A DNA stretch of 64,000 nt from Anatilimnocola floriformis. GTDB taxonomy: Bacteria; Planctomycetota; Planctomycetia; Pirellulales; Pirellulaceae. Below are positions 6,299-7,930 of this stretch, piece after piece. Position numbers and translations under genes: made by a program. The stretch's first letter is position 1, and each line of letters opens with the position of its first letter. The notes under the pieces were generated by a model. That model did not search any database. It saw only the letters and a list, made by a program, of their open reading frames with translations, and was not told the DNA's origin. Location: assembly GCF_024256385.1 (NCBI RefSeq), contig NZ_JAMLFW010000001.1, positions 1,426,001 through 1,490,000 on the forward strand, written 5' to 3'.

Positions 6299-6370
6299 GT
6301 GAGAAGCCCCGCTGACGAAACGATCGTATGACAGCGAGGATTCTAGCTTCTCCGTACACGAGATCAACAA

Positions 6371-6442
6371 AGACGCAGGTGGGAGTCGAACCCACTTGAA
6401 GTTGCTCTGCAGGCAACCGCCTGGCCGTCCAGCCCCCGCGCC
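6371..6442 (-). tRNA. tRNA-Cys (anticodon GCA)
   Basis: 72 bases. The acceptor GGCGCGG pairs with CTGCGTC (two G-T pairs), the anticodon arm is GTTGC-CTGCAGA-GCAAC, and the T arm is GTGGG-TTCGACT-CCCAC. The discriminator is T73, as expected for tRNA-Cys. Position 8 is G instead of the usual T. CCA is not encoded. It is the last tRNA of the minus-strand array. Confidence 0.88.
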
Positions 6443-6484
6443 TTATCTACTTGCCGCTCATTATTCTGGCGAACAATGATTGAA

Positions 6485-6558
6485 TGCCCTCGCTGGGAAT
6501 CGAACCCAAGTCTTCGACCTTCGCAGGGTCGCGTGCTGATCCGGTACACTTCGAGGAC
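6485..6558 (-). tRNA. tRNA-Arg (anticodon GCG, unusual)
   Basis: 74 bases. The acceptor GTCCTCG pairs with CGAGGGC (one T-G pair). D stem GTGT/GCAC, anticodon arm CGACC-CTGCGAA-GGTCG, T arm TTGGG-TTCGATT-CCCAG, discriminator A. The anticodon reads GCG, whereas bacteria normally decode CGN with ACG (inosine). The fold is good, so it may function; no CCA is encoded. Confidence 0.8.
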
Positions 6559-6564
6559 AGAAAA

Positions 6565-7010
6565 TCTACTCTCTACTCACTCCTGTCTACTCTCCTTGTT
6601 CTTAGCGACTCCATAGTCATCTAGTGACTTGATTAGTCCGTTCAGCATTTTCGAAATCTCTTCCAACCTCGCCTTGAGACTTTGCTGCTCATCCATCGGC
6701 AGTAGTTTTCGTCGGCCAGCCAGTTCCAGCAAAGGAACGCACTCATGAACGGATCCACGTGCGATGCCGAAAAAGTGCTTGCGATCCGGCACGGTGAATC
6801 GCCCATTTCCTTCTGCAATGTTCGTGGAGATGGAAAGCGCAGCCCGATTCAATTGGCTACTGATAAAGCCGTATCCGCGAGTGAATTGTGCTGTTCGCTC
6901 GCAAACGTCATCGACGAAATCGACCGCATGCTGATACACGAGCAGCTTCTCGAAAGCAAATGGCATGTCGTGCCCCAAAGGATAATAGAGAGGAGTGAGT
7001 AGAAAGTAGA
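6565..7010 (-). mobile_element. Intervening-sequence-like element carrying a four-helix-bundle gene
   Basis: The segment is bounded by 20-base inverted repeats at 6565-6584 and 6991-7010 with one mismatch (core TCTACTCACTCCT). It contains a single gene for the protein family found in 23S rRNA intervening sequences. Its left end lies 6 bases from the 5' end of tRNA-Arg. The second element at 7342-7424 has related ends and no gene. The mobile nature is inferred from this architecture. Confidence 0.6.
6577..6966 (-). CDS. Four-helix bundle protein (S23/IVS-encoded family)
   Basis: 129 residues from the ATG at 6966 (PFAFEKLLVYQHAVDFVDDV). The family signature SQLNRAALSISTNIAEGNGR is followed by an F...IARGS...E segment and a helical C-terminal half. 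This family was first seen as the single gene of intervening sequences in 23S rRNA genes and forms pentameric helical bundles; its function is not settled. Here it lies between tRNA-Ser and tRNA-Arg, inside the inverted repeats at 6565-7010, and its stop codon falls within the left repeat. The frame extends upstream to 7059 across the right repeat, but those codons look unlike protein. Confidence 0.85.
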   Translation of the reverse strand: MPFAFEKLLVYQHAVDFVDDVCERTAQFTRGYGFISSQLNRAALSISTNIAEGNGRFTVPDRKHFFGIARGSVHECVPLLELAGRRKLLPMDEQQSLKARLEEISKMLNGLIKSLDDYGVAKNKESRQE

Positions 7011-7066
7011 AACATATTGTCACCCCATTCCTCGCTGCAACCTTTGTTTTGATTTTCACCTCTCAG

Positions 7067-7154
7067 CGGAAGGCATGGGATTCGAACCCACATGACGACT
7101 GAACTTCGCGCGGTTTAGCAAACCGGCCCAGCGAACCGTATCTGGCTACCTTCC
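7067..7154 (-). tRNA. tRNA-Ser (anticodon GCT)
   Basis: 88-base class II tRNA. Acceptor GGAAGGT/GCCTTCC, D stem CCAG/CTGG, anticodon loop TTGCTAA, long variable arm with a GCGA/TCGT stem, T arm GTGGG-TTCGAAT-CCCAT, discriminator G as usual for Ser. The first anticodon-stem pair (27-43) is a C-C mismatch. CCA is not encoded. Confidence 0.85.
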
Positions 7155-7180
7155 TCGATCTCTTTCTGATTCAAACAAAG

Positions 7181-7252
7181 TGGACCTCATGGGAGTCGAA
7201 CCCATCGCACCGATCTTGCAAGGATCAGTCGCCTCCAACGGCATGGAAGCCC
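7181..7252 (-). tRNA. tRNA-Ala (anticodon TGC)
   Basis: 72 bases. Acceptor GGGCTTC pairs with GAGGTCC and includes the G3-T70 wobble that is the alanine identity element. Anticodon loop CTTGCAA; T arm ATGGG-TTCGACT-CCCAT; discriminator A. The D arm is unusually short (6-base loop) and there are two bases between the D and anticodon stems. Confidence 0.8.
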
Positions 7253-7263
7253 ACAACCCAAAG

Positions 7264-7337
7264 TGACCGAGGTGGGAATCGAACCCACAGACACGAGACC
7301 CTCGATCTCGCCGCTAAACCTGTTCGCGTACCCGGTC
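7264..7337 (-). tRNA. tRNA-like gene of uncertain identity (GAG, C33)
   Basis: 74 bases with a good acceptor (GACCGGG/CTCGGTC), T arm (GTGGG-TTCGATT-CCCAC) and anticodon stem (CGAGA/TCTCG). The seven-base loop is TCGAGGG, giving anticodon GAG with C instead of the nearly universal T at position 33. It has a short variable loop, whereas tRNA-Leu would be class II. It may be a pseudo-tRNA or a tRNA with altered identity. Confidence 0.65.
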
Positions 7338-7341
7338 AAAA

Positions 7342-7424
7342 ATCTACTCACTACTCACTACTTTCTCGTCTCTACTTTCCTCCTCTCCTGCCGTTCTCGC
7401 AGCAGAAGTGAGTCGAAAGTAGAT
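7342..7424. mobile_element. Short, gene-less relative of the 6565-7010 element
   Basis: An 83-base spacer between two tRNAs has inverted ends at 7342-7359 and 7407-7424 (15 of 18 bases pair) that share ATCTACT and ACTCACT with the ends of the four-helix-bundle element. It starts 4 bases from the 5' end of one tRNA and ends 6 bases from the 3' end of the next. It looks like an internally deleted copy; this is inferred. Confidence 0.45.
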
Positions 7425-7430
7425 CCTTAG

Positions 7431-7513
7431 CGGAAGCCGTGAGACTTGAACTCACAAGCGTTTTATCGCCACCTGTTTTCGAGACAGGGTCCTCATCCAG
7501 CCGGATGACTTCC
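7431..7513 (-). tRNA. tRNA-Ser (anticodon CGA)
   Basis: 83-base class II tRNA. Acceptor GGAAGTC/GGCTTCC, anticodon arm CCTGT-CTCGAAA-ACAGG, long variable region, T arm with loop TTCAAGT (a slight departure from TTCGA), discriminator G. CCA is not encoded. The D arm is short of a clear fourth pair. Confidence 0.82.
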
Positions 7514-7529
7514 GTACAAGCAAAACCAG

Positions 7530-7604
7530 TTCCGGGGGTTGGAATCGAACCAACGAACTTCTGGTTCAGAGCCAGATGCCACTACCAACAGCAGCTGCCC
7601 CGGA
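7530..7604 (-). tRNA. tRNA-Gln (anticodon CTG)
   Basis: 75 bases. Acceptor TCCGGGG/CCCCGGA starts with the weak T1-A72 pair typical of tRNA-Gln. Anticodon arm TCTGG-CTCTGAA-CCAGA; T arm GTTGG-TTCGATT-CCAAC; discriminator A. It is the first tRNA of the minus-strand array, 23 bases downstream of the end of the terminator T-run. Confidence 0.88.
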
Positions 7605-7627
7605 ATGATGAATCTTCAGTGAGCGCA

Positions 7628-7660
7628 CAAAAAAAAGCCCGGTGTCTTGCGACACCGGGC
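7628..7660 (-). terminator. Rho-independent terminator upstream of the tRNA array
   Basis: A 10-bp stem (7637-7646 with 7651-7660) with a four-base loop is followed on the minus strand by an unbroken T-run (7629-7636). It should end transcripts of the glycosyltransferase operon before the tRNA array. No gene is seen in the rest of 7605-7930, so the tRNA promoter must overlap or follow this hairpin. Confidence 0.85.
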
Positions 7661-7930
7661 AAATAGCCTGCATGAAGGGCTATTGGCGATGTCAACAAGA
7701 AGAACGAAGCTGGCGTAGCGAACTCGCGGCGCGCTGCGATGCGCACTGGGCCGAGGACTGGCTACGTCGCTGAGAGCTGGCAGAGGATGAAAAACAGGCA
7801 AACATGAGAATCGTCTCAAACGGAGCGGATTGAACTCGATGCAGATATTGACGGGGCACGGCCGAAAAGGTTCGCAAAATTATCTGCCGTAATTGCGATC
7901 CGCCTACGGGTTCGCTTATTCCCGTAATTT

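Follow-up and report, generated by a model that had tools for sequence, protein, structure and literature searches.

The window analysed here, a 64-kb stretch (G000:C1:1426001-1490000) of an 8.9-Mb host genome, contains a minus-strand array of seven tRNA genes spanning positions 6370-7604. Between two of these genes lies a compact unit in which a short gene is enclosed by two inverted arms, and a further hairpin, of the same repeat family but without a gene, is found elsewhere in the array (Table 1). The encoded protein matches both PF05635 (E 1.5e-26, 93.1 bits versus a cut-off of 33.8) and TIGR02436 (E 8.4e-26, 90.3 bits versus a cut-off of 24), which bears out its assignment, in a preliminary description of this DNA, to the S23 family of rRNA intervening sequences (IVSs). 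The sole solved relative found by sequence is XCC0516 (2gsc). According to the available part of PMC4990558, S23 proteins are without a known function; that of PMC10053308 reports a resemblance of PF05635 to Avd, the proteins of diversity-generating retroelements, and it is in this resemblance that S23 units are akin to such retroelements.

Table 1. Features of the S23 unit and the surrounding tRNA array (window coordinates).
Feature	Position	Strand	Remarks
S23/heptad element, arm - S23 gene - arm, 446 bp	6565..7010	-	arm score, PF05635 match, absent from same-genus G001
Gene for S23 protein (PF05635, four helix bundle), ATG start, 129 aa	6577..6966	-	profile matches; stop codon within downstream arm
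Arm upstream of S23 gene, gene sense TCTACTTTCTACTCACTCC...	6978..7010	.	ends 11 nt before ATG
Arm downstream of S23 gene	6565..6597	.	covers last codons and stop of CDS
Gene-less hairpin, repeat family as in element	7343..7424	.	between tRNA-Leu and tRNA-Ser(cga); absent from G001; RNA fold z -3.49
tRNA-Arg (gcg)	6484..6559	-	5 nt from element
tRNA-Ser (gct)	7066..7154	-	upstream of S23 gene; 55 nt to arm
tRNA-Cys, final gene of array	6370..6443	-	
tRNA-Ala, -Leu, -Ser, -Gln, array members	7180..7604	-	

The preliminary description had noted 20-base inverted ends with one mismatch. A single mismatch indeed separates 6565-6584 from the reverse-complemented 6991-7010, and the repeat proved longer than noted, since each arm comprises 33 nt; the two are 88% complementary and lie 380 nt apart. 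Their local inverted-repeat (IR) score of 23.0 was reached by none of 5000 Markov versions (maximum 14.0) and at none of 2445 equal-geometry placements elsewhere in the window (maximum 13.5). The arms consist of diverged ~7-nt units (TCTACTN), with a best lag of 7 (0.56, a value that includes filler Ns, which favour short lags), so that the tandem 7-nt units by which heptameric repeats are recognised are present here in diverged form. Terminal inverted repeats are likewise present, as in insertion sequences and MITEs, and the ends can pair to a stem as those of a 23S rRNA IVS do; the 446 bp encode neither a transposase nor any other enzyme of mobility. One end lies close to the 5' end of tRNA-Arg, as had been described; the hairpin at 7343-7424 had gone unmentioned in that description. 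A sigma-70 scan of 6300-7800 returned a single promoter-like site (minus strand, 6367-6340), no more than shuffled sequences yield, and none ahead of the S23 gene. Terminator-like 30 nt past tRNA-Gln (7631-7660) recur at C1:4042830-4042859 and in some relatives.

The comparison with relatives of the same tRNA order, which the preliminary description had proposed, showed the insert to be absent from the one genome of the same genus (G001). Its tRNA genes stand in identical order, in blocks that are 84-86% identical, with gaps of 43 and 47 nt, and the array holds neither the S23 element nor a counterpart of the hairpin at 7343-7424. Because the G001 spacers have diverged, a target duplication is unreadable in the window. 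Copies of the ends were found elsewhere in the host genome, all without the gene: hairpins at C1:564792-564870 (L007) and C1:1174141-1174226, and half a copy of the repeat at C2:707016-707047. By eye, the copy at C1:1174141 is close to both arms of the gene-bearing unit (88-91%). Two doubts raised at the outset, that the ends might have no other copy or that relatives might always keep the gene here as an ordinary separate one, were not borne out. In our view, insertion of a mobile S23/repeat unit into the tRNA array is well supported.

We found three S23 genes in the host genome, each within inverted arms of a different repeat, those of the second and third copies being GGGAGRC and GGGRCTG. 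A GGGAGRC pair pattern matched the genome 16 times (reversed control, 0), and two of these matches are the S23 arms. Four of ten gene-less GGGAGRC places have an inverted partner scoring at least 16 (scores that come without a control set), and the other six are single arrays rather than hairpins. For the third copy, a search of its own genome with the exact GGGGMCT pair pattern gave no match; gene and arms of this copy are conserved in G001. At the second-copy locus, the neighbours are 85-86% identical to those of the G001 ortholog, whereas the S23 genes are just 63% identical, and the arms match with scores of 23.0 and 16.0 within a species versus 7.5 and 12.0 across species. This divergence may reflect change in concert or the replacement of one unit by another.

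Similar arms surround S23 genes in many bacteria. PF05635 is present in 40 of 60 genomes, the host's included. Our set of relatives, with 94 rows from 37 genomes, consists of G001:C1:1324743 and 93 of the 109 rows with the lowest E-values among the matches listed; 16 of the 109 rows were left out, some of them at contig ends (including L024, L033, L055 and L074), and L098 was dropped as an edge, leaving 93 loci. The median flank IR score of these loci is 18.5; 64 of them lie above the 99th percentile of 3684 shifted controls (14.0), 41 lie above every control, and 29 fail the 99th-percentile test. A broad set from many phyla was taken from the best 80 of 590 stretches, 77 of which were usable and three at contig edges. 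Here, the 99th percentile of 4623 controls, again 14.0, is surpassed by 51 of 77 loci and the highest control (32.5) by two, and 26 fail the percentile test. Among 117 genomes of the family to which a Dyella genome belongs, 43 have PF05635; in this family, arms scoring above 14 flank 25 of 28 readable loci as against 18 of 1120 controls (28 of 30 loci used, two being short, from 53 matches listed). In the loci read, the arms lie close to the start and stop codons. The flank test is blind to units with both arms on one side of the gene, such that L073, L080 and L082 score 8.0, 8.5 and 9.0 though both of their arms lie upstream, and it also misses Nostoc-type units in which an arm runs over the stop codon (L223, L224 and L229, by eye). 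No arms are seen at L089, L090 and L092; the armless L090 and L092 are PF05635 genes with a long C-terminal extension and are perhaps no longer mobile.

The repeat varies between loci, and the two arms within one locus match: a locus's own partner arm was top-ranked in 54 of 93 and 44 of 77 loci, where about 1 is expected by chance. Between genomes, arm similarity follows protein similarity (Spearman 0.278; 62 loci, 1819 pairs; 0 of 2000 permutations as high), a correlation that can come from co-inheritance alone. Across 78 S23 loci with an IR score of at least 11.5, the best period was 7 in 55 and 8 in 15, compared with 7 in 54 and 8 in 12 of 212 controls; filler Ns, which favour short lags, entered the period count of the relatives' set and were kept out of the broad set and the 78-locus count.

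Of 392 genomes from the phylum, 19 (the host among them) have relatives of the window S23 (E up to 1e-20), and this subfamily tends to sit downstream of tRNA genes. At 18 of 25 related loci (L103-L124, L073, L080 and L082), ARAGORN places a co-oriented tRNA at most 340 nt upstream: tRNA-Pro, with three anticodons, in 15 cases, and tRNA-Ser, -Val or -Gly in the others. A search for the protein beside tRNA genes, as suggested earlier, thus succeeded in other genomes of the phylum. Most subfamily relatives share the order tRNA, short palindrome, long hairpin and gene; in the 14 leaders aligned, the long hairpin has a CGGTC core (CGATC in L104). The consensus fold of the leaders has 13 pairs, 7 of them changed on both sides, with a weak covariation term (-0.3), and the arms of the tRNA-S23 leaders align poorly; in the six subfamily relatives that were folded, the hairpins between tRNA and gene have z values of -3.4 to -5.9. 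L106 and L114 contain the long hairpin twice as direct repeats, before and after the S23 gene. By eye, tRNA-like 3' ends are retained in L103, L114 and L118 and lacking in L120, L123 and L124. In G019, tRNA-Pro is directly followed by a terminator-like hairpin, unlike in G396 of the same genus, and ~6 kb downstream the long hairpin recurs together with the final letters of a tRNA; tblastn with the window protein found no S23 there, and a possible fragment was seen by eye. Window positions 7019-7028 (TTGTCACCCC), just beyond the upstream arm and in the opposite direction, resemble the 3' end of the tRNA-Pro that precedes related genes, which may be chance. The idea of a tRNA 3' end as constant target was not upheld, with 55 nt between tRNA-Ser and the arm in the window.

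Of the other S23 loci from relatives, 11 of 85 are in tRNA arrays, some sharing a contig; at L094, a tRNA lies ~0.9 kb away. These 11 array loci contain 15 S23 genes, 12 of them of the RD(H/Y)xKLRAFELAD type, and 14 of the 15 run antisense to the tRNAs; the exception is L031. No tRNA is near L028 and L035, two genes of the RD(H/Y)xKLRAFELAD type. L056 (G014:C12:217000-230000) is a 29-tRNA array with several interspersed S23 genes, and those read are all antisense. Counting the window, L073, L080 and L082, 19 of 93 S23 genes lie by tRNAs. Among the broad-set loci none of 80 has a tRNA near, for which reason a role of the arms as a general tRNA-processing signal was dropped. The tRNA-focused reading of the preliminary description holds with respect to the S23 family, the stem-forming ends and the insertion, but it is too narrow, as most armed S23 genes have no tRNA nearby.

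Filled and empty sites can be compared on plasmids. S23 genes occur in 35 plasmid records, mostly cyanobacterial; six of ten plasmid loci read exceed 14, two of the six being near-duplicates, and single controls there reach 35.5. The unit is present on a plasmid of Trichormus variabilis ATCC 29413, and Tolypothrix PCC 7712 has the corresponding empty site (flanks 98.4 and 97.0% identical). GTAAT, found once in the empty site, stands at both ends of the filled one, a 5-bp duplication. The same site is filled likewise on a Scytonema plasmid and holds a shortened copy on a Nostoc C052 plasmid. A second C052 plasmid carries the unit where Nostoc C057 instead has 42 nt of other sequence and Nostoc ATCC 53789, by eye, a gene-less GGGAAC-type hairpin. 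In Calothrix brevissima, 11 nt of the target are replaced at the filled site, and the comparison of Anabaena sp. 90 with Dolichospermum is unclean, with extra DNA in both. On plasmid pANA02 of Anabaena sp. 90, a type I-D CRISPR operon contains an armed S23 gene (L220 2495-2863), placed between cas6 and cas4.

STRR of cyanobacteria are grouped with the 7-nt heptameric repeats. Representatives of this class are the GGGAATC repeats of Xanthomonas (70 inverted pairs in Xcc, 75 in Xac) and the GGGGA(C/T)T repeats of Nostoc, described by Rehm et al. 2015 (PMC4692102), who found inverted pairs to be few in Nostoc and report no general tie to mobile elements; the portion available gives them no established role, and a term search of the main text found no mention of S23 or a four-helix protein. 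The arms described here resemble these mostly intergenic repeats, some of which form inverted pairs, in their 7-nt units, and differ from them, as far as the accessible text of PMC4692102 describes them, in enclosing S23 genes. No link between S23 genes and heptad repeats appears in titles and abstract openings of the open-licence PMC literature, among the matches listed, and in the part of PMC5524665 at hand S23-type genes appear only in a table of phage regions. Across the 117 Dyella-family genomes, the median number of GGGAWTC pairs is 4 with S23 versus 0 without (Mann-Whitney 4.8e-5, kinship uncorrected), and at least 10 pairs occur in 19 of 43 genomes with S23 versus 10 of 74 without (Fisher 3.4e-4, again uncorrected for kinship). 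In nine genomes the S23 arms were read as GGGAWTC-like, and there the pairs number 2, 31, 53, 76, 80, 85, 105, 123 and 190. REP/RAYT and MITE elements are a further comparison, with short inverted repeats and gene-less copies that are moved in trans. S23 units share the short inverted repeats and the gene-less copies, but their partner protein is S23 and no transposase, and variable heptad repeats take the place of a fixed palindrome.

The closest known counterpart in plan is the IVS. According to the accessible text of PMC4990558, that of Coxiella burnetii is 428 nt long and combines an S23 ORF with a stem of 28 bp, RNase III cleaves rRNA IVSs, and a mobile origin of IVSs, with the ORF needed for mobility, was proposed by Ralph and McClelland 1993 (as cited there). 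A 23S rRNA IVS and the 446-bp unit are alike in size, the S23 ORF in the loop, the terminal stem and a patchy distribution. Unlike the former, the latter lies in a tRNA array, its arms are built of ~7-nt repeats, it has gene-less copies, and cleavage of its stem by RNase III is a prediction.

The 446-bp unit, inserted into the tRNA array, is probably a small mobile element of the S23/heptad-repeat kind, in plan like the rRNA IVSs. The unit would have entered the array after the split from G001, and its gene would be transcribed together with the tRNAs, because the 11 nt between arm and ATG are too short for a promoter. Processing of the stem within the tRNA precursor is plausible and would limit the harm to the tRNAs. 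As to how the protein acts, we infer that S23, a relative of Avd, may recognise the folded hairpin of its own repeat, as RNA or single-stranded DNA, and may help hairpin copying to new places by means of host enzymes, with gene-less hairpins carried in trans. Several points speak against the mobile reading: the unit encodes no mobility enzyme, no movement was observed, part of the S23 loci fail the 99th-percentile test or stay below the highest control, the GGGGMCT pair pattern gave no match, six of the ten gene-less GGGAGRC sites are single arrays, the covariation term of the leaders is weak, and at least 10 GGGAWTC repeats still occur in 10 of the 74 Dyella-family genomes that have no S23.

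An alternative that deserves some weight, if on balance doubtful, is that the insert is the tRNA counterpart of an rRNA IVS, co-transcribed, folded into a long stem and excised by RNase III, S23 having no part in mobility. The element is co-oriented with the tRNAs and has a 33-nt stem, the tRNA-gene hairpins of the six folded subfamily relatives are strong, and the RNase III cleavage of rRNA IVSs and the build of the Coxiella IVS provide a precedent in the available part of PMC4990558. However, like arms enclose S23 genes far from tRNAs, the S23 genes of other tRNA arrays are nearly all antisense, and the gene-less copies elsewhere and the match of arm and protein type would be left unexplained. 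The latter match, with the repeat sequence tracking the S23 protein type, also speaks against S23 genes being passengers in repeat hairpins that an unrelated host transposase moves, as RAYT moves REPs and insertion sequences move MITEs. Although the unit lacks a transposase of its own and the 5-bp duplication at one plasmid site resembles a transposase product, the association of S23 with arms across many phyla and the greater abundance of GGGAWTC repeats where S23 is present make this explanation unlikely.

It could also be argued that nothing moves, and that S23 binds its own repeats within a regulatory unit, controlling its own mRNA or the local chromosome structure, the repeats growing by replication slippage. 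The nearness of the arms to start and stop codons fits such a role, as do the partnerless single arrays at six of ten gene-less GGGAGRC sites; yet slippage does not yield two matching inverted arms, and the filled and empty sites on near-identical plasmids, together with the patchy distribution of the subfamily among the 392 genomes, render a non-mobile unit distinctly unlikely. Finally, the absence from G001 could instead be the loss of an ancestral element, with no gain in the host. The comparison does rest on one same-genus genome, but both TCTACT units of the array are absent there and the S23 subfamily is patchy, and we regard loss as very improbable.

Beyond this array, the wider claim of chief interest is that of one S23 for one repeat. 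S23 genes and ~7-nt-repeat hairpins might form a class of minimal bacterial mobile elements in which every S23 would recognise a repeat of its own; the unexplained heptameric repeats known from Xanthomonas and cyanobacteria would then be gene-less copies, and the rRNA IVSs and tRNA-linked units special cases. To this proposal we give an even chance. A unit of gene plus repeat would tie a protein family without a known function to unexplained repeats in many bacteria. If S23 and heptameric repeats are partners, a single protein, together with its own repeat and a plasmid, would suffice to put both long-standing questions to the test, and bacterial genomes would gain a mobile unit of ~450 bp whose ends are free to vary while matching each other.
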